Origin: Acidobacteria bacterium AB60
GTDB taxonomy: Bacteria > Acidobacteriota > Terriglobia > Terriglobales > Acidobacteriaceae
Length of the DNA stretch: 64,000 nucleotides
Direction: 5' to 3'
Assembly (NCBI GenBank): GCA_008682415.1
Contig: VANK01000007.1
Coordinates: forward strand, 248,001-312,000
Part shown: in pieces, positions 3,403 to 24,419 of the stretch
Numbering within the stretch: position 1 is the first letter of the stretch
How the letters are laid out: every line of letters starts with the position of its first letter
Notes under the pieces: model-generated
Told to the model about the DNA's origin: nothing
What the model saw: only the letters and a program-made list of their open reading frames with translations
Database searches by the model: none
Position numbers and translations under genes: made by a program

Positions 3403-4653
3403 ATGCCCACCGCCCTGCAGCCGGCACGCTCCCGTCTCAACCCCGCCGTGGCCACCCTCATCCTGCTGATCTGTCTCAATCTCCTCAACTACATCGATCG
3501 CTACATCCTCCCCGGCGCCCAGTCCCTCGTCCAGAAGGAATACGGCTGGAGCGACCAGCGCATGGGCGCCCTCACCACCGCCCTCTTCTTCGTCTACATG
3601 TTCGCCGCGCCCCTCACCGGGTGGCTCGGCGATCGCTACTCCCGCAAGCCCCTCATCATCGCCGGGGCCGTCCTCTGGAGCCTCGCTACCCTCGCCACCG
3701 CCTGGGTCCATGACTACTGGACCCTTTATCTCCGGCACGCCCTCGTCGGCGTCGGCGAGGCCACCTTCGGCATCTTCGCTCCCGCCGTCCTCTCCGACTT
3801 CTACCCCGAACGCGACCGCAACCGCATCCTGTCCATCTTCTATCTCGCCATCCCCCTGGGAGGCGCCATCGGGTACCTCGCCGGCGGAGAGCTGGGCACC
3901 CTCTACGGTTGGCGCGCGCCCTTCTTCCTCTGCGCCATCCCCGGCCTCCTCGTCGCCGCCCTCTATTGGGTCTTCGGGCACGAACCTGCCCGGGGCTCAG
4001 CCGACCACATCCGGCAAGACGTCCGCCGCGCCACCGTTCTCGGCCTCTTCCGCAACGGAGCCTTCCTCACCGCCACCCTCGGCCTTGCCGCCTGGACCTT
4101 CGCCGTCGGCGGCATCTCCACCTGGGTCCCCACCTTCCTGCACCGCTCCCTCGGCCTCACCGTCGCCCGCTCCAGCTTCGTCGTCAGCGCCATCACCGCC
4201 ATCGACGGCCTCGCCGCCACCGCCATCGGCGGCTGGATCGCCCAGCTATGGCTCCGCACCAACCACCGCGCCCTCTACCTCGTCTCCTTCGCCAGCGTCG
4301 TCCTCACCCTCCCCTTCGGCGCCCTCGTCTTCTTCGGGCCTCCCCGCTGGGCCATCCCCTCCCTCTTCGTCGCCGAGTTCTTCCTCTTCCTCTCCACCGG
4401 ACCCATCAACGCCGCCATCGTCAACTCCGTCTCCTTCCGCGTCCGCGCCACCGCCATCTCCGTCAACCTCTTCTGCATTCACTTCTTCGGCGACACCTTC
4501 TCCCCCCAGATCATCGGCGCCGTCTCCGACCGCACCAACCTCCGCCTCGCCCTCGGCGTCACCCTCATCGCCCTCGTCGTCTCCGCCATCATCCTCGCCG
4601 CCGGCGCCCGCTTCGCCCCACCCCTCGACGAGTCATCCCCCGCCTCCGCTTGA
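3403..4653 (+). CDS. MFS transporter, Spinster-like
   Basis: This 416-residue protein is predicted to have about 12 membrane segments. The first begins with the motif LNLLNYIDRYIL, which is characteristic of the spinster-like and sugar-phosphate/anion branch of the major facilitator superfamily. The conserved loop 2-3 motif GWLGDRYSRKPLI (family form GxLaDrxgrk) follows near residue 68. Substrate cannot be told from sequence; spinster-type bacterial members are mostly uncharacterised. The ATG at 3403 was chosen as the first start before the first helix; no Shine-Dalgarno is visible, since the upstream DNA is the heptamer tract. Codon third positions are overwhelmingly C. Confidence 0.85.
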   Translation: MPTALQPARSRLNPAVATLILLICLNLLNYIDRYILPGAQSLVQKEYGWSDQRMGALTTALFFVYMFAAPLTGWLGDRYSRKPLIIAGAVLWSLATLATAWVHDYWTLYLRHALVGVGEATFGIFAPAVLSDFYPERDRNRILSIFYLAIPLGGAIGYLAGGELGTLYGWRAPFFLCAIPGLLVAALYWVFGHEPARGSADHIRQDVRRATVLGLFRNGAFLTATLGLAAWTFAVGGISTWVPTFLHRSLGLTVARSSFVVSAITAIDGLAATAIGGWIAQLWLRTNHRALYLVSFASVVLTLPFGALVFFGPPRWAIPSLFVAEFFLFLSTGPINAAIVNSVSFRVRATAISVNLFCIHFFGDTFSPQIIGAVSDRTNLRLALGVTLIALVVSAIILAAGARFAPPLDESSPASA

Positions 4654-11914: not shown

Positions 11915-14302
11915 ATGCTTTTCGAAGTCCTATTTCCCGCAGCAAGGGTACTTACTGGTTCTGCTGTGCTGCTGGCCAGCGCAGCGTCTGTCGCCCAGAA
12001 CGTCGACTGGCCTGCGTACAACGGCGGGCGCGACGGCGATCACTACTCGAAGCTCACGCAGATCAATCGGGGTAACGTGGCGAAGCTCGCCGTCGCCTGG
12101 ACGTACGAGACCGGGGAGAAGGGCGGGATCCAGGCGAACCCGCTGGTGATGGGGGGAGTGCTCTACGCCTATACGCCTTCGCAGAAGGTGGTGGCGCTGG
12201 ATGCGGCGACCGGCCGGGTGAAGTGGACGTTCGACTCGGGGATTCCGGGCGCGCAGCAGCCGGCACGCGGCTTGAACTGGTGGACCGACGGCAAGGAGCG
12301 CCGGCTCTTCGCGGGGGTGATGAACTTCCTTTACTGCCTGGATCCGCAGACGGGCAAGCCCATCGAGTCGTTTGGCGAGAATGGCCGCGTGGACCTGCGC
12401 AAGGGGCTGCGCGAGCCGTACCAGGAGCAGTCGATCGCGCTGACCACGCCGGGTGTGGTGTACAAGGACATGATCATCGTGGGCGGGCGCAATCCGGAGA
12501 CGCACCCCGCGCCGCCCGGGGACATTCGCGCGTTCGACGTGCACAGCGGGCAGGTTCGGTGGGTGTTTCATACGATTCCGCGACCGGGAGAAGAAGGCTA
12601 CGAGACGTGGCCGGCCGACGCGTACAAGACTGCCGGGGCTGCGAACAACTGGGCGGGCATGGCGCTGGATGAGGCGCGGGGAGTCGTGTTTGTGCCGACC
12701 GGCTCGGCGGTGATGGACTTCTACGGGGGCGACCGGGTTGGGGACGATCTTTATGCCAACACGCTGTTGGCGCTCGATGCGAACACGGGCAAGCGGCTGT
12801 GGCACTTCCAGGGAGTGCATCACGATATCTGGGATCGCGACTTTCCGTCGCCGCCGGCGCTGTTCACCCTGGAGCGAGACGGCAAGACGATTGAGGCGCT
12901 GGCGCAGACCAGCAAGCAGGGATTCCTTTATCTCTTCGATCGCGTGACGGGCAAGCCGCTGTATCCGATTCCGGAGCGGCCTTATCCTGCGAGCACCGTG
13001 CCGGGGGAGGTGGCCGCGAAGACGCAGGCGCTGCCGGAGTACCCGGAGCCTTTCGCGCGCCAGCGCCTGACCGCCGACATGCTGACCACGCGCACGCCGG
13101 AGGCGCATGCGTGGGCGGTGAAGGAGTTTGCGAATATGCGCAGCGACGGGCAGTTTTTGCCCTTCGCGCTGGAGAAGCCGACGGTGGTGTTTCCGGGATT
13201 CGACGGGGGCGCGGAGTGGGGTGGTCCGGCCATCGATCCGGTGCACAAGGTGCTGTTTGTGAACGCGAACGAGATGGCGTGGCTGGGCGGGCTGACGCCG
13301 GTGGGGAAGGGAGGCAGTCCCGGAGAACAGGTGTATCGGCAGCAATGCGCGGTTTGTCATGGGCTGGACCGCAGCGGATCTCCGCCTTCGTTTCCGGCGC
13401 TTACGGACGCGAGCGCGCGGCTGGGGGATGCGAAGATTGCGCAGACGGTGCGGCAGGGCATCGGACGGATGCCTTCCTTTCCGAATCTGAACGATCAGCG
13501 GATGAGCGATCTGCTGGGGTTTTTGAGGACGCCGGCGAAGGCGGGGGCGGACAAGAAGGAGATGGCCTCGGACGCGCAGCAGCCCGCTCCTAAAGCGCAC
13601 GAGGAGGACACGGCGGGACGCACGGTCTACGCTCATCAGTGCGCCGTGTGCCACGGGGAGAATCGCGAAGGCATTCCTCCTTCGTTCCCGATGCTGATCG
13701 GGCTGGGCGCGCGGATGTCGGCGGAGCAAACCGCAGAGTTGGTGCACAAGGGGAAGGGCCGCATGCCGCCGCAGCCGGATCTGGTGGGCCCTGAACTCGA
13801 TGCATTGCTGCGCTATCTTGGCGTGGATGCGGCGGAGAACGCGAAGGAGGCCAAGGAGACGGCGGGGCCGCCCGATTACATCTTCACGGGGTACAAGAAG
13901 TTTCTGGATCCGGAGGGCTATCCGGCGTTTCAGCCGCCATGGGGGACGTTGAGCGCGATCGATCTGAAGACCGGGAAGTACCTGTGGAAGATCAACCTGG
14001 GGGAGTATCCGGAGCTGGTGGCGCAGGGCATGAAGAACACCGGGTCAGAGAATTATGGAGGGCCGGTGGTGACGGCGAGTGGGCTACTGTTCATTGGGGC
14101 GACGATGCATGACCGGAAGTTCCGCGCCTTCGATACCACGACGGGCAAGCTGCTGTGGGAGACGGTGCTGCCCTACGCCGGCGTGGCCACGCCGGCCACG
14201 TATATGGTGAACGGTAAGCAGTATGTGGTGATCGCCACGAGTGGTGCGCGGGACAGCAAGACGCCGCAGGGGGGCGCTTACGTGGCCTTCGCGCTACCCT
14301 GA
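11915..14302 (+). CDS. Secreted PQQ-dependent dehydrogenase with two c-type haem sites
   Basis: This 795-residue protein has a signal peptide (about residues 1-28, ending near SVAQN) and an eight-bladed quinoprotein propeller opening DWPAYNGGRDGDHYSKLTQI. Between the main propeller and its last blades lie two cytochrome c motifs: CAVCH at Cys478-Cys481-His482 and CAVCH at Cys576-Cys579-His580. The propeller then resumes near residue 650 with FTGYKKFLDPEGYPAFQPPW and WGTLSAIDL. It would oxidise a sugar or alcohol in the periplasm and pass electrons through the two haems. The domain order matches membrane-associated glucose/quinate-type PQQ enzymes without the N-terminal membrane helices. The haem pair inside the propeller chain is the notable feature. 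Confidence 0.88.
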   Translation: MLFEVLFPAARVLTGSAVLLASAASVAQNVDWPAYNGGRDGDHYSKLTQINRGNVAKLAVAWTYETGEKGGIQANPLVMGGVLYAYTPSQKVVALDAATGRVKWTFDSGIPGAQQPARGLNWWTDGKERRLFAGVMNFLYCLDPQTGKPIESFGENGRVDLRKGLREPYQEQSIALTTPGVVYKDMIIVGGRNPETHPAPPGDIRAFDVHSGQVRWVFHTIPRPGEEGYETWPADAYKTAGAANNWAGMALDEARGVVFVPTGSAVMDFYGGDRVGDDLYANTLLALDANTGKRLWHFQGVHHDIWDRDFPSPPALFTLERDGKTIEALAQTSKQGFLYLFDRVTGKPLYPIPERPYPASTVPGEVAAKTQALPEYPEPFARQRLTADMLTTRTPEAHAWAVKEFANMRSDGQFLPFALEKPTVVFPGFDGGAEWGGPAIDPVHKVLFVNANEMAWLGGLTPVGKGGSPGEQVYRQQCAVCHGLDRSGSPPSFPALTDASARLGDAKIAQTVRQGIGRMPSFPNLNDQRMSDLLGFLRTPAKAGADKKEMASDAQQPAPKAHEEDTAGRTVYAHQCAVCHGENREGIPPSFPMLIGLGARMSAEQTAELVHKGKGRMPPQPDLVGPELDALLRYLGVDAAENAKEAKETAGPPDYIFTGYKKFLDPEGYPAFQPPWGTLSAIDLKTGKYLWKINLGEYPELVAQGMKNTGSENYGGPVVTASGLLFIGATMHDRKFRAFDTTTGKLLWETVLPYAGVATPATYMVNGKQYVVIATSGARDSKTPQGGAYVAFALP

Positions 14303-14627: not shown

Positions 14628-15170
14628 TCAGTCTTGTCGCACGGTGACACGGAATCCCAGCTGCTTCCAGAAGTCCTGCACGAGGGCTTTTGCTTCGGCT
14701 TGGGTGCGTTCGGTGGTGCGGAGTTCAATGGCGCTCCCGGAGCCGGCCTGGGGCAGGCGGGCGAAGTCGCGGGGGTCGAGGGCGATGGCCAGGACGCGGT
14801 CGGGCCGATAGGTGCAGGCCGCCAGGTCAGTGATGGAGAGCTGCGTGGTGGGGGTGGCCAGCACGGTGCGGGGAGGCGCCATGCGGTCGAGCAGCCAGAG
14901 GATCTCGAGCTTCGACTCGAGCTCGTCGGGGACGCAGTCGATGGCCAGGTCGGCGGGCCGCACGGCATCCTCGACTGTGGAGACAAACTCGACGCGAGCC
15001 GGGGAGCTGGCCAGGGTGGCTGGTCCGAGCTGCTGTCGGAGGTACTCCTCGGCGTGATGCAGGTTGGCCGGCATCACATCTTCGAGAAGCACGCGGAAGC
15101 CGGCGCGCGCGGCGGCGAGCGCCAGCCAGCGGCCCAGCGGGCCCGCCCCGATGATGGCAACGGTTGTCAA
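14628..15170 (-). CDS. 3-hydroxyacyl-CoA dehydrogenase NAD-binding-domain protein (short)
   Basis: The 180-residue protein is essentially only the Rossmann half of the 3-hydroxyacyl-CoA dehydrogenase family: the NAD motif VAIIGAGPLGRWLALAAARAG at the N-terminus and the segment ADLAIDCVPDELESKLEILW that follows in the family. The C-terminal helical domain that completes the active site in FadB/PaaH (about 100 residues) is missing, so it is probably not a full dehydrogenase. It lies just downstream of a 60-residue ORF on the same strand, probably in one operon. Confidence 0.75.
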   Translation of the reverse strand: MTTVAIIGAGPLGRWLALAAARAGFRVLLEDVMPANLHHAEEYLRQQLGPATLASSPARVEFVSTVEDAVRPADLAIDCVPDELESKLEILWLLDRMAPPRTVLATPTTQLSITDLAACTYRPDRVLAIALDPRDFARLPQAGSGSAIELRTTERTQAEAKALVQDFWKQLGFRVTVRQD

Positions 15171-15212
15171 AGGGAGATCGTGCTCGAACCAATCAGAACG
15201 CGCGGGTGAGGA

Positions 15213-15395
15213 CTACTCTGCCTCGAGCGCGCTGGCGATGTCTTCAACGCTTGGCTTGGAGGCGCGCAGGTGCTCGTGCACGCGGGCGCGTTCTTCTGCC
15301 GAGAGCGTGGGAATGAAGGCCAGCATGCGGCGCAGCGTGACCGAAACATCGTCAATGTAGTTCATCAAGCGAATAGCTTCACCAGATAGAGGCAT
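15213..15395 (-). CDS. Small hypothetical protein (60 aa)
   Basis: I do not recognise this protein. It is a soluble, helical, acidic polypeptide with the segment TLSAEERARVHEHLRASKPS in its middle and ending in SALEAE. A GAGGGAAC ribosome-binding site lies 5-6 bases before the ATG, and its stop is 42 bases before the dehydrogenase-like gene, so the two probably form an operon. Base composition matches the neighbours. Confidence 0.6.
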   Translation of the reverse strand: MPLSGEAIRLMNYIDDVSVTLRRMLAFIPTLSAEERARVHEHLRASKPSVEDIASALEAE

Positions 15396-15581
15396 CTCAG
15401 TTCCCTCGCAGAAAATGTCCAGGCCTCATTGTAGGGGCTGCCCCCGTTTCCGGGAAACCGGCGGGGGTTGAGCGACCGGGAAGGAGGCTGGCGGATGCCT
15501 CGAGACATGGCGTGATTCCGAGCACATCCCGTAGCAAGGGGAGGGCGTAGCATGGCTTTCCCAAACGAGGAGGGTTGTGTC

Positions 15582-15929
15582 ATGAGCGACTTCTGCGCGC
15601 ATTGCGGCGAGCGTCTCGCCGAACCCGCACTCTTCTGTTCCCGCTGCGGCGGGCGGGTCCTTCACCCGCAGGAGCACGCGCATCTCCCGGCAGAGAAGGT
15701 TGCGGTTGGGGGAGCGTTCAGCGGCCTCTATCTCGGATTGATTGCGCTGCCGCTTCTGCTGATCTTTGGAATCATGCTGTGCCTCACGGGCTGGGGGATC
15801 GTCTTCGGACTTCCGGTGATCGTGCTGGCAATTCTCGCGCCGCTTGCGGGCCCGCTCTTCGGACTGGGCGTCGCGAAGGAAGGGCAGGGTGAGGAACCCA
15901 CCGGGGAGGCGGCACCTCCGTTGCGGTAG
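15582..15929 (+). CDS. Zinc-ribbon membrane protein
   Basis: The 115-residue product starts with a zinc ribbon, CAHCGERLAEPALFCSRCGG (two CxxC pairs), within residues 4-24. It then has two hydrophobic segments at about residues 45-95, so the ribbon would face the cytoplasm. The ATG at 15582 was preferred over the one at 15552 because AGGAGGG lies 6 bases before it and the ribbon follows directly. Function unknown. Confidence 0.7.
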   Translation: MSDFCAHCGERLAEPALFCSRCGGRVLHPQEHAHLPAEKVAVGGAFSGLYLGLIALPLLLIFGIMLCLTGWGIVFGLPVIVLAILAPLAGPLFGLGVAKEGQGEEPTGEAAPPLR

Positions 15930-16074
15930 AGGCTATCCCCGTGGCGGGATGGCACTCACTGTGAAGTTGAGCCAGCGAAGAGCCGGCTCCATCATAACTT
16001 TTATCTATCGATGATCAAATAAGAATAAGTTTGCGTTATGCCGTTTCCGAGGTCAGACTGAGATCGAAGGGGGC

Positions 16075-16833
16075 ATGATGACGCAGACCTGGGACCCGCA
16101 ACTCTACGATCGTGAAGGATCCTTTGTTCACAAGCTGGCGGGCGGCGTGGTGGAGTGGCTGGATCCGCAGCGTGGCGAGCGCATACTCGATCTCGGCTGC
16201 GGCGATGGGCAGCTCACGGTGCGGCTGGCTGGAATGGGCGCGCTGGTGACCGGTGTGGATGCATCGGCCGACATGGTTGCCGCGGCGCGAGGGCGTGGGG
16301 TAGCGGCGGAGCATGCGCCTGCTGAGAATCTTCCCTTCGCGGCGGGTTCTTTCGATGCGGTGTTTTCGAATGCGGTGTTGCACTGGGTGCGCGGCCAGGA
16401 CCAGATGATGGCCGAGGTTCGCCGGGTGCTGCGGCCGGGCGGGCGATTTGTCGCGGAGATGGGCGGGCACACGAATGTGGCTGCGATTCACGTCGCACTG
16501 CGGGCCGTGCTGGGCCGTCATGGGTACGGTCATCTGGAAGAGAGCGTGAATTACTATCCCACCCCGACGGCCTACAGGAAGCGCCTGGAAGAAAGCGGTT
16601 TTTTGGTGGAGCGGATCGAGTTGATTCCGCGGCCGACGCCGCTGGGTACGGGAGGAATGGAGGGCTGGCTGTGGACATTCCGGCGCGGGGTGCTGGAGAG
16701 CGTTCCGGAGCCTATCCGTGCTCTGGTGGTCGCGGAGATCTGCGACCTGCTTGCCACCGCTCTTCGCGACGAGCAGGGCAACTGGACGGCCGATTATGTG
16801 CGGCTACGCTTCCTTGCGCGGGTCAGCGCGTGA
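16075..16833 (+). CDS. SAM-dependent methyltransferase, class I
   Basis: The 252-residue protein has motif I ILDLGCGDGQLTVRL at about residue 41 and the acidic loop VTGVDASADM. Motif II is SFDAVFSNAVLHWV near 90, followed by VLRPGGRFVAEMGG. The pattern SNAVLHWV is typical of trans-aconitate 2-methyltransferase (Tam) and related enzymes, but the substrate is not certain. It overlaps the end of the TSUP gene on the other strand by 11 bases. Confidence 0.85.
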   Translation: MMTQTWDPQLYDREGSFVHKLAGGVVEWLDPQRGERILDLGCGDGQLTVRLAGMGALVTGVDASADMVAAARGRGVAAEHAPAENLPFAAGSFDAVFSNAVLHWVRGQDQMMAEVRRVLRPGGRFVAEMGGHTNVAAIHVALRAVLGRHGYGHLEESVNYYPTPTAYRKRLEESGFLVERIELIPRPTPLGTGGMEGWLWTFRRGVLESVPEPIRALVVAEICDLLATALRDEQGNWTADYVRLRFLARVSA

Positions 16834-17179
16834 ACAACATGCGGACGCCGATGACGACGAGCATGACGGCGAAGATACGGCGCAGCCACATCTCGGAGAG
16901 GTGCTGGGCTCCCACTGCTCCGAAGTAGCCGCCCACCACGAAGCCTGCGGCCAGCAAGAGGGCAATGCGCAAGTCGGCATTGCCATGACGGTAATACTCC
17001 AGAAAGGCGAAGATGCCCACGGGCGCGAGCAATGCTCCGAGCGAGGTGCCCTGGGCTTTGGCCTGGTTCATGTGGAAGATCCAGAGGAGCGCCGGAATGA
17101 ACAGCACGCCGCCGCCGATGCCCACGACTCCCGAGACTGCTCCCACCACCACGCCCACCAATAATGCAAGCCAGGTCAT
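16823..17179 (-). CDS. Half-size TSUP (TauE/SafE-like) membrane protein
   Basis: The 118-residue protein has about four membrane segments and the TSUP signature VVGAVSGVVGIGGGVLFIPALL at its N-terminus (key residues G-GxGGGxxxxP). Canonical TSUP permeases are about 250 residues with two copies of this unit, so this is a single repeat that would have to dimerise to make a transporter. Substrates of the family are small organic or sulfur anions. The ATG at 17179 has GGGAGAACG upstream; the longer frame to 17275 is not supported. Confidence 0.85.
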   Translation of the reverse strand: MTWLALLVGVVVGAVSGVVGIGGGVLFIPALLWIFHMNQAKAQGTSLGALLAPVGIFAFLEYYRHGNADLRIALLLAAGFVVGGYFGAVGAQHLSEMWLRRIFAVMLVVIGVRMLFTR

Positions 17180-17275
17180 CTCGTTCTCCCTCGCGTGTTT
17201 TTCCTGTGCTCCCATCAGCCTACACGACGGGAATCGAGCGTCAGAACGAGGCAAGTTTGTGGATGTTAGGCGCAA

Positions 17276-17713
17276 GATAAGTCGGTTTTCTGTAAGAAAT
17301 GCTGAGACTAACTTGCTTTCCTGTTCCGAGTTATGGCATAGTCGGAGGTGCGTAGGAGAAACGCCCGATGGAACGCATGACTCAAATTTCGATGCGTAAG
17401 CTGGGATGGCTCGATAAGGGCCACGTCCCCGGCTCCCGGGCGGATTTCCCCAATCACCAGTAGCCGACCTGGCAGCTTTCTCTTACGCTCATCGCACATT
17501 TTCAATTGACTCGGGGATTCGTCAAGATCCTCGACTTGACTCGTTTCGCTTCAACCGCCCGGGTGGTGGAGAAGACAGTTTCATCGTCCTGTCACGACAA
17601 CCGCTGTCTTCGTTGGTTCCCTCGGGTAACTGTATCGACTAACTCAGACGTATCCTAACTGCCCGTCGAAGTTATCTTCAGCGGAGGACAGGATAAGTGC
17701 GTTCAAAAAAGCG
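17276..17713. other. Intergenic region upstream of the Y-RNA array
   Basis: This 440-base stretch has no convincing gene. It probably holds the promoter for the Y-RNA/rsr locus, but I cannot point to one element with confidence: TATCCT (17651) and GATAAG (17692) are possible -10 sequences. I looked for a sigma-54 site, which drives the RNA-repair operon in Salmonella, and did not find a convincing one. Confidence 0.4.
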
Positions 17714-17875
17714 GCGCCGGTGGCGTATGACGTGAGTTACTTCCACCGCTAACAAACGATGCAGGGGCGCGGAGAGCCCTGCCGGAGCGCTCTTTCGTGG
17801 GGCGGGGGCGTAGTCCCGAAGTGCCAGGCACCACGAAGAAGAGGCTTCGCACTCACGTCGCCGATTCCCCGGCGC
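17714..17875 (+). ncRNA. Y-RNA-like element A
   Basis: Ends pair perfectly: GCGCCGG (17714-17720) with CCGGCGC (17869-17875). After an asymmetric internal loop, GGC (17722-17724) pairs with GCC (17860-17862), and then GACGTGAG (17729-17736) pairs perfectly with CTCACGTC (17852-17859). The 5' word CCGGTGGCG, the inner word TACTTC (17738-17743) and the 3' word TTCCCCGG are shared with two other elements at this locus. Inside are a GCAGGG/CCCTGC hairpin and a TTCGTGG/CCACGAA hairpin; no TTCGA T-loop is present, so this member lacks clear tRNA mimicry. Y RNAs bind the Ro60/Rsr ring through the end stem. Confidence 0.7.
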
Positions 17876-17908
17876 ATGCAGTCTTTGAGCTTGAGTTAGA
17901 CGTCACCC

Positions 17909-18041
17909 TGGCCGGTGGCGCAGGTTGCGGTTACTTCGCCTCATAAGCCGGATGCGCAGGTTCGATTCCTGCCGCGGGCGCAAGCCCGTGTCGTCTAGTG
18001 GGAGGACGCCGTCCAGTCCGCAGTCGCCTTTTCCCCGGCCA
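17909..18041 (+). ncRNA. Y-RNA-like element B with permuted tRNA-like module (YrlA type)
   Basis: Ends pair as TGGCCGG (17909-17915) with CCGGCCA (18035-18041), then GGCG/CGCC (17917-17920, 18025-18028) and TGCGG/CCGCA (17926-17930, 18018-18022). The distal module reads in permuted tRNA order. A T-arm GCAGG-TTCGATT-CCTGC (17956-17972) runs directly into acceptor strand CGCGGGC, a GCAA tetraloop, and acceptor strand GCCCGTG (7 bp, one G-U). Linker TC and a D-arm GTCT-AGTGGGA-GGAC (17993-18007) follow. This is the architecture known for bacterial YrlA RNAs. It lies 36 bases before the following ORF. Confidence 0.85.
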
Positions 18042-18077
18042 TAACCTCCCGGTGTTCCCGGATAGAAAGCAAGCGCC

Positions 18078-18416
18078 ATGGTCAAGTTGAACGTAAAGAA
18101 CGGCACGCCGGTCGGCAACCAGCACCTGTGCCGGCGCTGCACCTGGGGGCAGTTCATGACCGGGTATCGCGAGTCGGAGGTGCTGGTGATCTGCCGGTAC
18201 GCCGAGCCGAACCTTGCGGTGCCCTTTGTGGTGATGAATTGCAGCGAGTTCAGCGACAGGCATCGTCCGACGTGGGAGCAGATGACGAAGCTGGCGATTC
18301 ACGTGGCTCCAAGCCGTGTCTCGAAGCGCACTCCCGGGTTTGCCGCTGCGGGCAATGTGCGGCCAATCCGCGAAGACGAAGACGAGGATGCGGGCGAAGC
18401 GGCCCGCACAGGTTGA
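18078..18416 (+). CDS. Small four-cysteine protein between Y RNAs
   Basis: I do not recognise this 112-residue protein. It has four cysteines, Cys18-x2-Cys21, Cys39 and Cys55, in LCRRCTWGQF, VICRYAEP and NCSEF; these could bind zinc. The N-terminus is basic and the C-terminus strongly acidic (REDEDEDAGE). Codon use resembles neighbours, and the frame runs exactly between Y-RNA B (ends 18041) and Y-RNA C (starts 18429), which supports it as a real gene. The position suggests a role with the Rsr particle, which is inference. The ribosome-binding site is weak. Confidence 0.65.
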   Translation: MVKLNVKNGTPVGNQHLCRRCTWGQFMTGYRESEVLVICRYAEPNLAVPFVVMNCSEFSDRHRPTWEQMTKLAIHVAPSRVSKRTPGFAAAGNVRPIREDEDEDAGEAARTG

Positions 18417-18428
18417 CAGAAACATGCG

Positions 18429-18558
18429 CCTGCCGGTGGCGCAGGGAACGGATACTTCAGCGGTAGAAGACGACCCGTTGGGTCGAGTCGCAGGTTCGAA
18501 TCCTGCCGTCTGGCTTGGGCCAGATGTCAAATGCCGTACCCACCCTTTCCCCGGCAGG
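18429..18558 (+). ncRNA. Y-RNA-like element C with tRNA-like module
   Basis: Ends pair perfectly: CCTGCCGG (18429-18436) with CCGGCAGG (18551-18558), followed by ACGG/CCGT inside. The module has a D-arm-like hairpin CTTC-AGCGGTA-GAAG (18455-18469) and an anticodon-arm-like hairpin CGAC-CCGTTGG-GTCG with a 7-base loop (18471-18485). A perfect T-arm GCAGG-TTCGAAT-CCTGC (18490-18506) joins an acceptor-like stem CGTCTGGC-TTGG-GCCAGATG. No matching 5' acceptor strand precedes the D-arm, so it is not an ordinary tRNA gene. CTTTTCACTTTTC follows, a weak terminator-like tract. It ends 24 bases before the rsr start. Confidence 0.85.
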
Positions 18559-18582
18559 CTTTTCACTTTTCAAGGAGGCGAT

Positions 18583-19938
18583 ATGCGTCTGAACATTCTC
18601 AAGCTGAGTCATCTCGCCAGTCCGCGCACGCATGAGGGAGGGCCGGCTCGCGTGCTCACGGCCGAGCAGGCGCTGCGGCGTTCCGTACTCTCCTGCATGC
18701 TGTGGGAGGACGAGTTCTACGAGGACGGGGTGCAGATCGCGGGCCGCATCCGCGAGCTGGTGCCGCGCGTGGCCGCCGGCAAGGTGGCGGCGCTGGCCAT
18801 CGAGGCCCGCGAGCGGATGAAGCTGCGTCACGTGCCGCTTCTGCTGGTGCGGGAGATGGCGCGCCATCCTTCGCATCGCGCCCTGGTGAGCGAGACGCTG
18901 GCCCGCGTGATCCAACGGGCCGATGAGCTGGCGGAGTTTGTGGCCATCTATTGGGCGGGCGGAAAGCAGCCGCTCTCCGCGCAGGTGAAGAAGGGCCTGG
19001 CGGCGGCATTCTGCAAGTTCGACGAGTATGCTCTGGCGAAGTACGACCGCGCCGGAGTCGTTCGCTTGCGGGACGTGCTGTTCCTCTCGCATGCGCGTCC
19101 CAACGATGCCGCGCAGGCCGATCTGTGGAAGCGGCTGGCGCAGAACGAGCTCACCACGCCCGATACCTGGGAGGTGGCGCTCAGCGCGACTGGACGCAAC
19201 GGCACGGCCAAGCGGGAGGCGTGGGAGCGCCTGCTGGCCGAGCACAAGCTGGGTGCGCTGGCGCTGCTGCGGAACCTGCGGAACATGCGGGAGGCGGGCG
19301 TCAACGAGGAGCTGGTGGTGAGTGCGCTCACGGTTCTCAAGACGGATCGCGTTCTGCCGTTCCGGTTTCTCGCAGCCGCGCGGCACGCGCCGCAGTGGGA
19401 GCCGGCGCTGGAGCAGGCGATGTTCCGTGCGCTTCGGGGCAGTGACGTGCGCCTGGGAGGGCACACGGTCCTGCTGGTTGACGTCTCCGGATCGATGGAG
19501 TCGCCGATCGCGCGCCAGTCGGAGACTCGGCGGGCGGATGCGGCCTGCGGCCTGGCCATACTGCTGCGGGAGGTTGCGGAGAAGGTGACGATCTACACCT
19601 TTTCCGAGACCGCGCGGCTGGTTCCGGCGCGGCGCGGGATGGCTCTCCGCGACGCGATCGAGAAGAGCCAGCCGCACGCGGGAACGTACCTTGGGCTGGC
19701 GCTGCGCCAGGTGGCGGAGGACTGCCGGGGCGGCTACGACCGCCTGGTGGTGATTACTGACGAGCAGTCGCACGATGCGGTTGGCGGCCCCGGTGGGACG
19801 GGGTACATGATCAACGTGGCCAGCAGCCGCAATGGCGTGGGCTACGGAGACTGGACGCACATCGACGGCTGGAGCGAGGCGGTGGTGGATTACATTGCGG
19901 AGCTCGAGCGCGGAGAGGCGCCGATCCGGGCAAACTGA
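18583..19938 (+). CDS. rsr: Ro60 orthologue Rsr (TROVE + vWA domains)
   Basis: Rsr is the bacterial Ro60 RNA-binding ring protein, which binds Y RNAs and misfolded RNA and helps RNA decay or survival under stress. The 451-residue protein has TROVE HEAT-like repeats at about residues 25-290 (start region LTAEQALRRSVLSCMLWEDEFY) and a von Willebrand A domain at about 295-448. The MIDAS motif is LVDVSGSM (Asp300, Ser302, Ser304), followed by AGTYLGLAL and VITDEQSHD. All metal-site residues look intact. It is shorter than Deinococcus Rsr (about 530). The ATG at 18583 was chosen for its AAGGAGG site and the family start; an upstream in-frame extension would run through Y-RNA C. A strong terminator follows. 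Confidence 0.95.
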   Translation: MRLNILKLSHLASPRTHEGGPARVLTAEQALRRSVLSCMLWEDEFYEDGVQIAGRIRELVPRVAAGKVAALAIEARERMKLRHVPLLLVREMARHPSHRALVSETLARVIQRADELAEFVAIYWAGGKQPLSAQVKKGLAAAFCKFDEYALAKYDRAGVVRLRDVLFLSHARPNDAAQADLWKRLAQNELTTPDTWEVALSATGRNGTAKREAWERLLAEHKLGALALLRNLRNMREAGVNEELVVSALTVLKTDRVLPFRFLAAARHAPQWEPALEQAMFRALRGSDVRLGGHTVLLVDVSGSMESPIARQSETRRADAACGLAILLREVAEKVTIYTFSETARLVPARRGMALRDAIEKSQPHAGTYLGLALRQVAEDCRGGYDRLVVITDEQSHDAVGGPGGTGYMINVASSRNGVGYGDWTHIDGWSEAVVDYIAELERGEAPIRAN

Positions 19939-19950
19939 ATGAAACCTGCA

Positions 19951-19986
19951 GGGGAGCCGCGCGATGCGGCTCCCCCTCTTTTTTGG
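19951..19986 (+). terminator. Rho-independent terminator after rsr
   Basis: GGGGAGCCGC (19951-19960) and GCGGCTCCCC (19966-19975) form a perfect 10 bp hairpin with a 5-base loop, followed by CCTCTTTTTT. It lies 13 bases after the rsr stop codon. Confidence 0.95.
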
Positions 19987-20034
19987 ACCGGACTTCGACT
20001 GACGAGGCTCCGACGGACCAGACTCCGACTGGGA

Positions 20035-20763
20035 TCAGGCTCCGACCATCTCACGCTTTTCGCCGGTCGCGGGCGCCGGTTTTTCGGCGGAGAGGACGCC
20101 GGTGCGGAAGAGCAGTCCCGCGACGATGCCGGCGAGGCTGGGAATGATGAGGAAGAGCCAAACCTGGCTCAGAGCCTGTCCGCCGACCAGGAGCGCAGGG
20201 CCGAAGCTCCGCGCCGGATTGACGCTGACGCCGGTGATGCGGATTCCGAAGATGTGGATGACCACCAGGGTGATCCCGATGACCAGGCCGGCAAATCCGG
20301 CAGGCGATGCTTTTTGGGTTGCACCCAGGATGACCACCACGAAGATCAGGGTGGCGAGGAATTCGAAGACAATGGCGGAGGTGAGATCGTAGCCGCCTTG
20401 GTAGCCGGGACCCCAGCCGTTCTGGCCCAGCCCGCTTGCGTGACGGCTGAAGCCGCCGCCCATGCCGTGGGCGATGACCCAGACCGATCCGGCGCCGACG
20501 ATGCCGCCGCAGAACTGCCCGATCCAATAGCCGATCATCTCGCCGGTGGTCATGCGGCCGGCGGTCCATACTCCGAGACTCACCGCGGGATTGATGTGGC
20601 ACCCGGAGATGGGCCCGATTCCGTAGGCTGCGCCGACCAGGGCGAAGCCAAAGGCAAAGGCGATGCCGACGACGCCGACTTTGTCGCCCGCAACCACGGC
20701 CGTTCCACAGCCAAAGAGCACGAGGATGAAGGTGCCCACAAATTCAGCGAAGTACTTGTTCAT
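20035..20763 (-). CDS. aqpZ: Aquaporin Z-like water channel
   Basis: The 242-residue inner-membrane protein has six helices and the two half-helix NPA motifs of the MIP family: SGCHINPAVSLG near residue 60 and GVSVNPARSFGPALL near 180. The Arg after the second NPA and an aromatic/His-type selectivity filter are those of water-selective AqpZ rather than GlpF. An AAAGGAGCT ribosome-binding site precedes the ATG at 20763. Confidence 0.96.
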   Translation of the reverse strand: MNKYFAEFVGTFILVLFGCGTAVVAGDKVGVVGIAFAFGFALVGAAYGIGPISGCHINPAVSLGVWTAGRMTTGEMIGYWIGQFCGGIVGAGSVWVIAHGMGGGFSRHASGLGQNGWGPGYQGGYDLTSAIVFEFLATLIFVVVILGATQKASPAGFAGLVIGITLVVIHIFGIRITGVSVNPARSFGPALLVGGQALSQVWLFLIIPSLAGIVAGLLFRTGVLSAEKPAPATGEKREMVGA

Positions 20764-21033
20764 GACAGCTCCTTTTTTTCAACGTTGCCGGCGCCCCCGC
20801 GCCGGGAAGACAAGTGACTGTGGCCCGCCGAATGTGAGACTTAGGGACCGAAACCAGGGAGGACGAGCCGCAAAGGAAGCCGCCCGGAGTGTGGCAGAGC
20901 CCGCCGCAACAGTCAAGCAAATCCTTCGTCGAATTCCCTAGGGGCCGGATCTCGAAAAAGTGCTGTCACGTATGGACGGGAAACCCATCTAAAGATCTAG
21001 GTCCTGCTCCCCGGAGGCTCGCCCGCTATCCCT

Positions 21034-22233
21034 ATGCATTTGCCGAAGCTTGAACGCCGACCCGAACTCGACGCTCTCCGCGGGCTCTTCCTCGTGTGGA
21101 TGACGATTACGCACCTTCCCACGCGATTCAGCGACTTTGTGAACCAGCCGCTGGGGTTCATCTCGTCGGCGGAGGGTTTTGTCTTCATCTCCGCCCTGCT
21201 GGTGGGACGGCTTTACTTTCGCGATCTGCTGCAGGACCCGGGCGGGGTTCGCGTCAAGCTATGGCGGCGCTCGCTGAAGATCTATGCCTACCACCTGCTC
21301 ATGCTGGCGCTCGCTTTCACCGTGGTGGCGCAGATTGCGATCCACACCCACAAAGCCGCGCTCATGAACCTGCTGAGCTTCTACTTTGCGCACCCGTTTG
21401 TGGCGATTGCGGGATCGGTGCTGCTGCTGTATTGCCCGCCGCTGCTGGATATTCTGCCGATGTACGTCACGTTTCTGGCGTTCACCCCGGTGGTGCTGAC
21501 GGCGGCGGTGCGCTTCGGGTGGAAGTGGATTCTTTTCGCCAGCTGCACGGTGTGGCTTCTGGCCCAGTTTGGTCTGCGCGACGTGGTACACAACTGGATC
21601 GTGCATGTCACCCATCTCGGGATCCCGCTGCAGGAGTCTGGCGCGTTCAATCTTTTCGCGTGGCAGATGGTGTGGACCGCGGGCATGTGGCTGGGGGCCC
21701 GTTCGGCGGTGGCGTCGGTGCCCCTGAATCGCATCCCCGGGTGGCTTGCGGGGGTCTCGGCTGCGGTGTGCGTGTTCTTTATCGGGGTTCGATTCGCCTG
21801 GTTTGGACCGCACTACACGACCCAGGCATTCGGGATGCACCTGGATAAGTGGCAGATCGGCCCGCTGCGGGTGATCAACCTGGTGGCGTTTACGCTGCTT
21901 GTTTACTGGGCGCGCAAGTACATCCTGCGGGTGATCGCGATCGAGCCGTTTCTTACTCTGGGAAAGGCTTCGCTGCGGGTGTTTTGCGCGCATATCGTGT
22001 TCGTGTTTGCGGGGCTCACGATGCTTTACGGGAACTTCAACGCCGACGGGCTGGATCAACTCCACGGCATTCCCGCCATCGCTTTGCTGGCATGCACCTT
22101 CGCTTCGCTGATTTGGCTGGCGTCCAACGAGGTCCGCAGCAAACGGGCCGAAAAGGAGAAGCGCCGGGCCGCGGAAGCCCTGGCCCGCCAGCATGCCGAA
22201 GCGTCTCCTGAACTGGCGCGCACCGGCACCTAG
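21034..22233 (+). CDS. OpgC-like membrane protein (acyltransferase-type)
   Basis: This 399-residue protein has about ten membrane segments. Its N-terminal motif is RRPELDALRGLFLVWMTITH, with the RPELDALRG word typical of OpgC-domain proteins. OpgC succinylates osmoregulated periplasmic glucans in proteobacteria; related acidobacterial proteins are uncharacterised, so the substrate is unknown. The C-terminus is a charged cytoplasmic helix rich in Arg, Lys and Glu. It stands alone, divergent from aqpZ across 270 bases. Confidence 0.8.
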   Translation: MHLPKLERRPELDALRGLFLVWMTITHLPTRFSDFVNQPLGFISSAEGFVFISALLVGRLYFRDLLQDPGGVRVKLWRRSLKIYAYHLLMLALAFTVVAQIAIHTHKAALMNLLSFYFAHPFVAIAGSVLLLYCPPLLDILPMYVTFLAFTPVVLTAAVRFGWKWILFASCTVWLLAQFGLRDVVHNWIVHVTHLGIPLQESGAFNLFAWQMVWTAGMWLGARSAVASVPLNRIPGWLAGVSAAVCVFFIGVRFAWFGPHYTTQAFGMHLDKWQIGPLRVINLVAFTLLVYWARKYILRVIAIEPFLTLGKASLRVFCAHIVFVFAGLTMLYGNFNADGLDQLHGIPAIALLACTFASLIWLASNEVRSKRAEKEKRRAAEALARQHAEASPELARTGT

Positions 22234-22394
22234 GGCACCGGAGGCGCGAAGGAGCGGCCGGACCTGTGCCCGGACGACAGACCTTGAATCGGCGTCGGTA
22301 CGATACTCCTGGGCGCAATGCATGACTTCGTCACTTTTTTGCTTCCCGAGGCGAGGGGCATTGCCGAGAATGGTGGAACCGACCAGGAGGAAGC

Positions 22395-24419
22395 ATGCGC
22401 GCAGGGATCGTCGTACTGTTGGCTGCCATGGGAGTGGGCGCGGCGGCGCAGAACAACCCCGCCTCAAAGAGCGTTGAGAGGGGAGACATGGATCGGAGCG
22501 CGGCTCCGTGCGACAACTTCTACGAGTTCGCCAACGGCACATGGCGCGCCCAGAATCCGATTCCCGCATCGATGCAGCGCTGGAGCCGCCGCTGGCAGGC
22601 GGGCGAGCAAAATAAGGATCGACTGCGCACCATCCTCGATGATCTTTCCTCGTCCGAACATCCCAAGGGAACGCCTGCGCAATTGACGGGGGACTTCTAC
22701 GCCGCGTGCACCAACGTGAAGGCCGTCGATGAGGCTGGCGTCGCGCCGCTGAAGGCCTCACTCGCCGCCATTGACGCCATGCACGATGCTGCCGGGCTGC
22801 AGGAGGAGATTCGGCAACTGCACGCCGTCGGTGTCTTTGTGCCCTTTGGGTTCAATTCGGCGCAGAACCAGCATGACCCTGCCAACATGATTGCCGACGT
22901 GGGGGCGGCCGGCCTGGGGCTGCCCGATCGCGACTACTACCTGAAGCCGGACCAGCGTTTTGCCGACGCGCGCGCGGGATACCTTCAGTACATCGCAAAG
23001 ATCTTTACGCTGGCGGGCTCTCCGGAGGCGGAAGCCAAGTCGGCCGCCACGACGGTGATGGATTTTGAGACGGCGCTGGCCAAGGCTTCCCTCGATAACG
23101 TGGCGCTCCGCGATCCCAGCGCCACCGATCACCTGATGGACTACGCGGGGCTGGAGAAGATGACGCCGCATTTTGACTGGACCGCCTATTTGAAGTCTGC
23201 CGGCGTGGCTGCGGGCGTGGTGAACGTGGATCAGCCGCTGTTTCTGGCTGAGTTCGAGAGGCAGCTTACCAAAACTCCGCTGGCGCAATGGAAGATCTAC
23301 CTCAGGTGGCAGGTCCTCAACAACGCAGCGGATACCTTGTCGCAGCCGTTTGTGGACGCGCATTTCGAGTTCTATCAGAAGCAACTGGCGGGGGTAGGCG
23401 AGCTTAAGCCGCGCGGGACCCGCTGCGCTGAGTTGACCGACGGGCTGCTGGGCGAGGCGCTCGGACAGGAGTATGTGAAGAGATACTTTCCGCCCGAGGC
23501 CAAGGATCGCGCCAAAACCATGGTGAACAACATTCTGGCGGCCATGCATGACACGATCCAGGGGCTCGACTGGATGGCTCCGGCGACCAAACAGAAGGCG
23601 CTCGAGAAGCTCGCGGCGGTGCGGGTGAAAGTTGGCTATCCGGATAAGTGGAAGGACTACTCCAGCGTGAAGATTGAGCGCGGCGACTTCTTCGGCGACA
23701 CGATCGCAGCATCGCGGTTCCTGGTGGCCGACGATCGGGGCAGGATCAACAAGCCGGTGGACCGCAGCCTGTGGGGGATGACGCCGCCGACATCGGACGC
23801 CTACTACAACCCGACGATGAATGAGATCGTGTTTCCGGCCGGAATTCTGCAGCCCCCGGCGTTCAGCCTTCAGAACGTGGACGCGGTCAATTACGGCGCG
23901 ATTGGCGTGGTCATCGGGCACGAGATATCGCATGGATTTGACGACCAGGGAGCGCAGTACAGCGCGAGTGGCGCGCTGGACAACTGGTGGACCGCCGAGG
24001 ACCTCAAGAAGTTCCAGGCCAAGACCGCGTGCGTGGTGAAGCAATTTGATGGTTACCGGATCGATGGCCCTGAGGACATTCACATCAACGGCAAGCTGGT
24101 TCTGGGCGAATCCATCGGCGACCTGGCGGGGCTCAAGATCGCGTACCTGGCGTTCAAGAAGACGCCTCAGGGGCAATCGACCGAGCTGATCGACGGACTG
24201 ACGCCCGATCAGCAGTTCTTCATCGCCTGGGGGCAGTTCCGCGGCGACGAAACGCGGGTTGAGACCCAGAAGATGATGGTGCAGGGCGATCCGCATCCGG
24301 TCGCGAAGTATCGCGTGGTGGGGCCGGTCTCGAACTTCCCGCCGTTTGCCGAAGCGTTCCAGTGCAAGGCCGGAGCAGCGATGGTGCGGCCGGAGTCGGA
24401 GCGCTGCGTGGTCTGGTAA
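22395..24419 (+). CDS. Secreted M13-family (neprilysin/PepO-like) zinc metallopeptidase
   Basis: The 674-residue protein has a signal peptide (cut near AAAQNNP, about residue 21) and then the M13 N-terminal domain starting CDNFYEFANGTW. The catalytic zinc site is VIGHEISHGFDDQGAQ (HExxH) with the third ligand in GESIGDLAGLKIAY. The C-terminal tail ends in CVVW, the CxxW motif typical of the family. The NPTMNEIVFPAGILQPP substrate-binding stretch is also intact. It would cleave oligopeptides in the periplasm or outside the cell. Confidence 0.96.
   Translation: MRAGIVVLLAAMGVGAAAQNNPASKSVERGDMDRSAAPCDNFYEFANGTWRAQNPIPASMQRWSRRWQAGEQNKDRLRTILDDLSSSEHPKGTPAQLTGDFYAACTNVKAVDEAGVAPLKASLAAIDAMHDAAGLQEEIRQLHAVGVFVPFGFNSAQNQHDPANMIADVGAAGLGLPDRDYYLKPDQRFADARAGYLQYIAKIFTLAGSPEAEAKSAATTVMDFETALAKASLDNVALRDPSATDHLMDYAGLEKMTPHFDWTAYLKSAGVAAGVVNVDQPLFLAEFERQLTKTPLAQWKIYLRWQVLNNAADTLSQPFVDAHFEFYQKQLAGVGELKPRGTRCAELTDGLLGEALGQEYVKRYFPPEAKDRAKTMVNNILAAMHDTIQGLDWMAPATKQKALEKLAAVRVKVGYPDKWKDYSSVKIERGDFFGDTIAASRFLVADDRGRINKPVDRSLWGMTPPTSDAYYNPTMNEIVFPAGILQPPAFSLQNVDAVNYGAIGVVIGHEISHGFDDQGAQYSASGALDNWWTAEDLKKFQAKTACVVKQFDGYRIDGPEDIHINGKLVLGESIGDLAGLKIAYLAFKKTPQGQSTELIDGLTPDQQFFIAWGQFRGDETRVETQKMMVQGDPHPVAKYRVVGPVSNFPPFAEAFQCKAGAAMVRPESERCVVW

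Follow-up and report, generated by a model that had tools for sequence, protein, structure and literature searches.

What is the row of structured elements that precedes an rsr gene, encoding the bacterial orthologue of the RNA-handling protein Ro60, and are these one RNA repeated or several different RNAs? The question is raised by a locus in the soil bacterium Acidobacteria bacterium AB60 (Acidobacteriaceae; assembly GCA_008682415.1, contig VANK01000007.1, positions 248,001 to 312,000), within a stretch of 64,000 nucleotides that we term the window and in whose coordinates all positions are given. A first-pass annotation of the sequence described three Y RNA-like elements on the + strand, with paired ends of 7-8 bp and shared sequence words, directly upstream of a TROVE-vWA gene with its own terminator. 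We find that this observation is correct but incomplete, as there is a fourth element.

Four elements with a common handle precede rsr

The TROVE-vWA gene lies at 18583-19938 (+) and encodes 451 amino acids. The protein matches PF05731 (TROVE) with 50.3 bits against a cut-off of 23, and PF25045 (vWA_Ro60) with 29.1 bits against a cut-off of 27.7, and it matches the TROVE proteins 9kop and 9l5y of the PDB with E = 9e-30. Residues D300, S302, S304, T368 and D393, the metal site of the vWA domain, are invariant in an alignment of 14 rows. The gene is followed by a terminator-like hairpin at 19951-19975, which with its T run extends to 19983.

The three elements first described are E1 at 17714-17875 and E2 at 17909-18041, each with a perfect end stem of 7 bp, and E3, with 8 bp over 18429-18558 and 9 bp if taken as 18428-18559. 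All three contain CCGGTGGCG, TACTTC and TTCCCCGG. A finder built from these features returns exactly these three on the + strand of the window and one hit on the - strand (13934-14144), while 20 Markov-1 random windows of the same size gave 6 hits in all on both strands. The finder was made after the elements had been seen, so that this is not an independent test. More independent is its behavior in 80 named related loci, where of 194 hits 192 lie upstream of the TROVE gene on its strand, with 1 in or after the gene and 1 on the other strand. Moreover, the inner helix, which the finder does not use, is complementary within elements (mean score 15.3) but not between them (mean 10.0, with 10.4 the highest of 50 permutations; 195 elements). 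Folding of the single sequences alone gives only weak support, with z = -1.95, -1.83 and -3.30 for E1, E2 and E3 respectively.

The fourth element, E0, lies at 17556-17628 (+). It was found as a match of 26.3 bits (E = 0.0027 over 772 kb) to R1, a model built from rows that include E2, and its fold has z = -1.92. Three is the commonest number of such elements in relatives, and so the suggestion in the annotation that three is more than the known arrangements is not supported; of 68 loci with at least 1500 nt upstream, 20 have three, 26 have four or more (up to seven) and 22 have one or two.

Compensatory change in the end stems had been named in advance as a test of the annotation, and it does not refute it. 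In 42 rows of the class of E2, 8 of 10 outer-helix pairs change on both sides, and the end stems of the other classes also covary. The interpretation in the annotation is thus supported in part: that this is an rsr locus with Y RNA-like elements holds, the count was incomplete and is not exceptional, and a role of the shared words as an Rsr-binding loop remains an inference.

Presence of the RNAs tracks that of rsr. R1 has matches in 73 of 398 genomes of the family and TROVE in 82 of 398, with both in 66. Sixteen TROVE-positive genomes lack an R1 hit, although 12 of these have only partial TROVE matches, and 7 R1-positive genomes lack TROVE.

Between E2 and E3, at 18078-18416 (+), there is a conserved open reading frame for a 112-amino acid protein with four cysteines, of which C18, C21 and C39 are invariant and C55 nearly so in 24 rows. 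It was found by tblastn in 37 of 80 loci. It belongs to no Pfam or NCBIfam family, and family and PDB searches gave nothing convincing; one of 24 members had a weak NCBIfam match to a cysteine-cluster family (E = 0.0044). An AlphaFold model had a mean pLDDT of only 49.5. A tight link to rsr is weakened by the finding that 13 of 68 genomes that have the protein lack TROVE.

Each element carries a different module

All four elements share a handle, comprising an outer helix of 7-10 bp with a bulged U before two constant G-C pairs, an internal loop, an inner helix, and then UACUUC or a near variant. Beyond this they differ. E0 (class M, 73 nt) is essentially handle only, with a small loop and no tRNA-like module. 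In an alignment of 27 sequences, 13 of 17 predicted pairs are changed on both sides in at least one sequence. E1 (class L, 162 nt) carries a conserved module that is not tRNA-like and has no T arm. It has a conserved GGGGC-GUA-GYCCC hairpin followed by GA and a CACAAGG-like stretch inside a covarying stem, and in 23 sequences 19 of 33 predicted pairs have changes on both sides.

E2 (class P1, 133 nt) is a circularly permuted tRNA mimic with all four arms. The tRNA order is entered at about position 29 in the anticodon stem and left at position 28, and the acceptor stem is closed by a short loop, GCAA in E2, so that there is no CCA end. The upper anticodon arm, CGC-CTCATAA-GCC, lies at 17937-17949 (tRNA positions 29-41), with the 7-nt anticodon-type loop CUCAUAA; in E2 itself 2 of its 3 stem pairs are standard. 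The T arm GCAGGTTCGATTCCTGC lies at 17956-17972 (tRNA positions 49-65) and the D arm GTCTAGTGGGAGGAC at 17993-18007. E2 matches R1 with 121.2 bits, although it is one of the rows from which R1 was built. In the 42 rows of class P1, 95.7% of cells are paired, against 40.6-48.3% when slid, and 31 of 36 pairs have changes on both sides, including 3 of 3 in the upper and 2 of 2 in the split lower anticodon stem. In 28 rows the elbow positions U8, A14, G18, U55, C56, G57, A58 and C61 are invariant, and U54 and G19 are at least 90% conserved (in our assignment of tRNA numbering). U33 is present in 39 of 41 P1 loops and a purine at 37 in 40 of 41.

ARAGORN calls no tRNA gene in the window. When P1 elements were rejoined by one fixed rule, however, 22 of 23 were called tRNA, compared with 21 of 460 with shuffled parts and 0 of 23 in the wrong order, although 10 of the 23 are also called without rejoining. 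The rule was applied only to elements that pass a strict parse, which E2 does not because one stem pair is C-C; a freer scan over entry and exit points called 67 of 108, E2 among them. E2 as a recent copy of a host tRNA is not supported. Against 32 distinct host tRNAs (from 30 of the 50 tRNA matches in the genome) its best alignment score is 31.5, where pairs of host tRNAs with different anticodons average 30.7, though the lack of CCA lowers the score of rejoined E2. We claim no amino acid identity for the anticodon-like loops, which vary (Asn-, Met-, Val-, Asp-, Thr-, Ser-, Lys-type and others). In a possible U36-A37 bias, U36 occurs in 27 of 41 P1 loops and 19 of 26 viral ones, against 11 of 32 host tRNAs, but the rows are related and this is a lead only.

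E3 (132 nt) is a degenerate member of class D, whose canonical members carry a tRNA order entered in the D-loop. Its module begins with the D-loop half GGTAGA, followed by an anticodon-type stem with a 3-nt loop, the T arm and a closed acceptor stem, but the D stem of its relatives is not kept. We therefore rejected E3 itself as a well-formed D-loop-opened tRNA. It matches the class model R2 with 93.3 bits, being one of the rows from which R2 was built, and the Rfam tRNA model RF00005 in part. In 17 rows of class D, 21 of 32 pairs have changes on both sides, yet the D stem never does, so that covariation does not prove the opening in the D-loop. Of canonical class D elements that parsed, 7 of 10 were called tRNA after rejoining (shuffled 2 of 500, wrong order 0 of 10), while 0 of 10 derived class D elements, E3 included, were called. 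As to a possible class D in viruses, R2 gave 22 matches in 50 sources, at least one of them, at 3684-3820 of the source numbered L248 (56.4 bits), without an R1 match at E up to 1e-6. For all classes, pair counts were made on alignments fitted to the model, and the rows are related.

Relation to known Y RNAs and permuted tRNAs

The closest known RNA is the bacterial Y RNA YrlA (Rfam RF02553; Salmonella YrlA structure PDB 6CU1), which is likewise encoded beside rsr with a long stem of paired ends and a circularly permuted tRNA-like domain (PMC8394870, PMC11472068) in the order T arm, closed hairpin, D arm. E2 and the 42 rows of its class have the permuted D, T and acceptor arms in this order, whereas E3 has no D stem and E0 and E1 have no tRNA-like module. 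Class P2 relatives have the order without the anticodon hairpin (37 of 150 bacterial rows parse in this way). E2 differs in adding an anticodon arm to the D, T and acceptor arms described for YrlA (PMC8394870), and its T stem begins at position 48 of 133, compared with position 31 of 114 in RF02553. That model scores E2 at only 22.4 bits against a gathering score of 69, and does not reach this score anywhere in 15000-23000 of the window or in 13 bacterial and 15 viral related loci. Such RNAs can thus be missed by Rfam's YrlA model, and can be annotated as tRNAs, as in phage Gurke. A literature search showed no report of an anticodon-bearing or D-loop-opened Y RNA, a result that is provisional with respect to the key YrlA papers (Chen 2014, Wang 2018) and does not cover Chen 2013, Sim 2018 and Sim 2020.

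The Deinococcus Rsr-Y RNA-PNPase complex (RYPER) has Rsr with a Y RNA tether. A Deinococcus gobiensis plasmid rsr locus has an RNA upstream of rsr that matches R1 at 99.2 bits and, by eye, a class M-like element before it. The window has four RNAs of four classes, two of them without any tRNA part, and the genome has a PNPase gene (one match over the cut-off, 983.6 bits). The Salmonella rsr-yrlBA-rtcBA RNA repair operon has rsr with more than one Yrl RNA (PMC7790460). In the window the Y RNAs lie before rsr, with the four-cysteine open reading frame between them, and we found no RtcB match in the genome, in a search that gave matches in 9 of 14 control genomes; an RNA repair role through RtcB in this organism was therefore rejected. 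Permuted tRNA genes of algae and archaea also have the 3' half of a tRNA before its 5' half. At this locus the acceptor ends are fused by a loop and the ends of the permuted molecule are the putative Rsr handle, so no ordinary tRNA would be expected to arise. The unusual aspects of the locus are the anticodon arm, the second permutation and the set of different modules, the first two of which had not been noted in the first-pass annotation.

A set of exchangeable modules for Rsr?

We interpret the locus, with reasonable confidence, as an Rsr operon that encodes a set of at least four Y RNAs in front of rsr. The common handle, the class-specific modules and the permuted tRNA order are shown by the comparison of sequences. 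What the RNAs do is inferred, in the absence of expression or binding data: that they are cut out of one long transcript as stable species, given gaps of 11-85 nt and the lack of a sigma-70-like promoter on this strand in 17150-20100; that Rsr binds each through the handle; and that each module recruits a different partner, for example PNPase as in Deinococcus, or proteins that bind the tRNA elbow or the anticodon loop. Rsr would then be switched between partners by exchanging Y RNAs, a step for which there is no direct evidence. E3 ends 23 nt before the rsr start codon, so Rsr binding or excision there may also control rsr translation.

Other explanations are possible, though we consider each less likely. 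P1 RNA might be a decoy, presenting a complete tRNA surface with an anticodon loop but no CCA end, so that anticodon nucleases or other tRNA-attacking factors bind or cut it in place of real tRNAs and Rsr holds and clears the product. The loop signature with variable positions 34-35, the occurrence of the same class in viral contigs and a phage, and an RtcB-like gene in the retrieved flank of 10 of 80 related loci (two of them partial matches) are consistent with this tentative view. It draws also on Hughes et al., but the same paper detected no fragments of Salmonella YrlA, the genome of AB60 has no RtcB match, and classes M and L have no tRNA part. About equally doubtful is passive inheritance, in which the modules are remnants of tRNA genes that gave rise to Y RNAs by permutation and the anticodon loop merely stabilizes its hairpin. 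Some alphaproteobacterial acceptor loops begin with ACCA or TCCA (in the loci numbered L127, L128, L130 and L133), and other elements have lost arms, yet U33 and purine 37 are kept while positions 34-35 vary across phyla, and the stems are kept by compensatory change.

It is still less likely that the elements are mainly cis-acting structures in the rsr mRNA leader through which Rsr controls its own synthesis. The last element ends within 100 nt of the rsr match in 43 of 74 loci, and the array is co-directional without an obvious separate promoter, but there are up to seven elements per locus and many lie far upstream of rsr. Finally, E3 matches RF00005 at 31.1 bits, above the gathering score of 29, and is the weakest of the 50 tRNA matches in the genome, which might suggest chance or tRNA pseudogenes near a TROVE gene. 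This is refuted by the covariation in all classes, the 192:1:1 bias of strand and position, and TROVE in 66 of 73 R1-positive genomes.

A bolder reading is possible, though less likely than not. Rsr in Acidobacteriaceae would work with an exchangeable set of Y RNAs whose modules arose as separate circular permutations of a tRNA, one opened in the anticodon stem and one in the D-loop, together with modules that are not tRNA-like. P1 RNA would then be a complete tRNA surface with a working anticodon loop, used to capture proteins acting on anticodon loops (nucleases, repair or modification enzymes) and bring them to Rsr.

If the RNAs are made and bind Rsr, the locus gives a ready comparison system for the open question of what the module of a Y RNA does, since one protein, one handle and four modules in one operon allow each module to be deleted or swapped. 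The anticodon-bearing class would extend tRNA mimicry by Y RNAs from three arms to a whole tRNA, and two permutation points would make Y RNAs a natural case of repeated circular permutation of one fold.

Organization of the rsr locus

The window lies within a genome of 6.65 Mb. On the + strand we find, in order, four predicted Y RNA elements interrupted by an open reading frame and followed by the gene for the Ro60 orthologue Rsr, that is E0 (17556-17628), E1 (17714-17875), E2 (17909-18041), the ORF (18078-18416), E3 (18428-18559) and rsr (18583-19938), with a terminator-like hairpin at 19951-19975. The product of rsr contains a TROVE domain and a Ro60-type vWA domain, and matches two solved TROVE proteins with E = 9e-30. 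The residues of the vWA metal site are retained in 14 of 14 aligned sequences. This is the only TROVE match in the genome.

The shared words and paired ends that the first-pass annotation described in three elements are exact, and its observation holds. Folding of single sequences is not convincing on its own, giving z values of -1.95, -1.83 and -3.30, but comparison is. We searched 80 loci (the best 80 of 134 found) with a finder for the common handle of the elements, built from its paired ends and constant words. This gave 192 hits upstream of the gene on its own strand, one in or after the gene and one on the other strand. The inner helix is not used by the finder, yet is complementary within elements and not between them, with scores of 15.3 against 10.0 for 195 elements from the 72 of 81 loci (window included) that passed the filter. 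The rows are related, with only identical sequences having been removed. Within the window a single hit lies outside the array, at 13934-14144 on the - strand, and is probably due to chance. One tRNA-Cys(GCA) of the host begins with GCACCGGTGGCGAAG, which is close to the CCGGTGGCG word of the handle.

We next asked how many elements are typical of such loci. Taking the finder hits together with the best 150 matches of R1 (the model built for the class of E2), 74 of 80 loci have at least one element. Of the 68 loci with at least 1500 nt upstream, nine have one, 13 two, 20 three, 15 four, nine five, one six and one seven. The full list of 279 R1 matches in 80 sources at E up to 0.01 adds some, with loci L070 and L099 having seven each and the window four. 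The last element ends within 100 nt of the rsr match in 43 of 74 loci. The first-pass annotation had considered three Y RNAs to be exceptional, and since this does not hold within this group its interpretation is only partly supported.

The ORF located between E2 and E3 encodes a small conserved protein with four cysteines, found in 37 of 80 loci (24 sequences were aligned). Searches with the window's copy returned no Pfam or NCBIfam family. It occurs in 68 of 398 genomes of the family, 55 of them with TROVE and 13 without. There are genomes with a match to the ORF but to neither TROVE nor R1 (for example G098, G150 and G168), so that its connection to Rsr is loose.

Element classes and tRNA-like modules

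The four elements fall into different classes. Class M (E0, about 73 nt) comprises the handle and a small loop, and in 27 rows 13 of 17 predicted pairs show changes on both sides. Class L (E1, about 160 nt) has 23 rows, with both-side changes in 19 of 33 predicted pairs, and a conserved GGGGC-GUA-GYCCC hairpin, GA and a CACAAGG-like stretch inside a covarying stem. No Rfam family matched E1 at E up to 1. For class P1 (E2), the R1 model and a realignment of 42 rows give 95.7% of cells paired, compared with 40.6-48.3% when the partners are slid, and 31 of 36 pairs have both-side changes. None of 500 shuffles reached any of the five measures, although that alignment was fitted to the structure, which favors it. 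For class D (E3), 17 rows give 92.8% of cells paired (37.7-44.9% when slid) and both-side changes in 21 of 32 pairs, but none of these lies in the D stem, which is nearly constant and is not formed in E3 itself. A smaller class with a T arm but no D stem was also seen.

The order of parts in P1 is that of a permuted tRNA. Reading along the RNA there are three bases of the anticodon stem, a 7-nt loop, the 3' strand of that stem, a short variable stretch, the T arm, an acceptor stem of about 7 bp closed by a short loop, two bases, the D arm, one base, and finally two bases that close the anticodon stem. The upper part of the anticodon stem (three of three pairs) and its split lower part (two of two) both exhibit compensatory change. 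When rejoined in tRNA order by one fixed rule, 22 of 23 elements that pass a strict parse are called as tRNA by ARAGORN, compared with 21 of 460 with shuffled parts, 0 of 23 in the wrong order and 10 of 23 without rejoining. E2 does not pass that parse, because one of its three upper stem pairs is C-C. A freer scan over entry and exit points called 67 of 108 elements having a T arm and an acceptor-like hairpin, with E2 among them (Met, CAT, being among its readings).

The loop has U33 in 39 of 41 cases and a purine at position 37 in 40 of 41, while positions 34-35 are variable. In viral contigs 26 of 89 R1 matches parse as P1, with U33 in 23 of 26. Most P1 anticodon-type loops in the alignments A5 and A11 have U36-A37, the sequence of tRNAs that carry t6A37, but as the rows are related this is no more than a lead. 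In the P1-like elements of four alphaproteobacterial loci (L127, L128, L130 and L133) the loop closing the acceptor stem begins with ACCA or TCCA, as if the CCA end of an ancestral tRNA had been fused to its 5' end.

Of 39 elements inspected, ten canonical class D elements parsed. These begin the module with GGTAGAGC or a near variant, corresponding to the second half of the D-loop and D stem, and end it with TAGCTCAG or a near variant, corresponding to the first half. After rejoining, seven of ten are called as tRNA, against 2 of 500 when shuffled and 0 of 10 in the wrong order; three more that look canonical (in loci L069, L077 and L080) did not parse and are outside these counts. Of ten derived members, including E3, none is called (4 of 500 when shuffled). 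By the score of R2 (the class D model) and by eye, class D occurs also in the alphaproteobacterial loci L127 and L133, and L120, a MAG labeled Clostridiales, contains a degenerate candidate.

Linkage to rsr in genomes and viruses

Among 398 genomes of the family TROVE occurs in 82, and an R1 match (E up to 1e-4, with stricter filters) in 73, with 66 having both. Seven genomes have R1 alone (G010, G037, G082, G152, G197, G280 and G324). In G324 a Y RNA match at 2800-2913 of locus L173 lies next to the four-cysteine ORF, with no TROVE match in that genome. Sixteen genomes have TROVE alone, of which twelve have only partial matches of the gene, and the remaining four (G051, G070, G119 and G126) a full match. 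The finder shows a small T-arm element for G070 and G119, but none for G051 and G126, whose contigs are cut near rsr. In loci L061-L065 (genomes G040, G048, G135, G141 and G069) there are only partial TROVE matches and no R1 match in the stretch examined, and it is possible that rsr and the Y RNAs are lost together. In the sample of the phylum 12 of 297 genomes have R1 at E up to 1e-8, six of them outside the family.

Such arrays are also found in viral contigs, where 68 of 80 loci were searched. Brevundimonas phage Gurke (locus L304) has six R1 matches before its TROVE gene, and one weak partial match after it at an annotated tRNA. The best of the six, at 3769-3904, contains an annotated tRNA-Ser (3769-3843), and phage TROVE loci may hold more tRNAs misannotated in this way.

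Relation to known Y RNAs and proposed mechanism

The location of the elements and their end stem are those of bacterial Y RNAs, while their expression and their binding by Rsr are inferred. E2 has the order of YrlA, whose circular permutation relative to tRNA is already known (PMC11472068). However, it fails to reach the gathering score of RF02553 (22.4 against 69), and has an additional anticodon arm in comparison with the three-armed description of YrlA (PMC8394870). E3 matches the tRNA family in part, with a score of 31.1 against a gathering score of 29. We therefore regard the elements as a variant of the bacterial Y RNAs, provisionally distinguished by the anticodon arm and the opening in the D-loop.

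In Deinococcus a Y RNA tethers Rsr to PNPase, and YrlA is modified by tRNA enzymes (PMC8394870 and PMC4726728). PNPase is encoded in the present genome, whereas a search of the genome for RtcB found none. Our comparisons show that the elements have a common handle and distinct modules, that they are codirectional with and linked to rsr, and that there is a tRNA-like order of parts. Beyond this we can only infer a mechanism, in which the RNAs would be excised from one transcript, bind Rsr by means of the handle and recruit different partners through their modules, and in which the element next to rsr may also act in cis.
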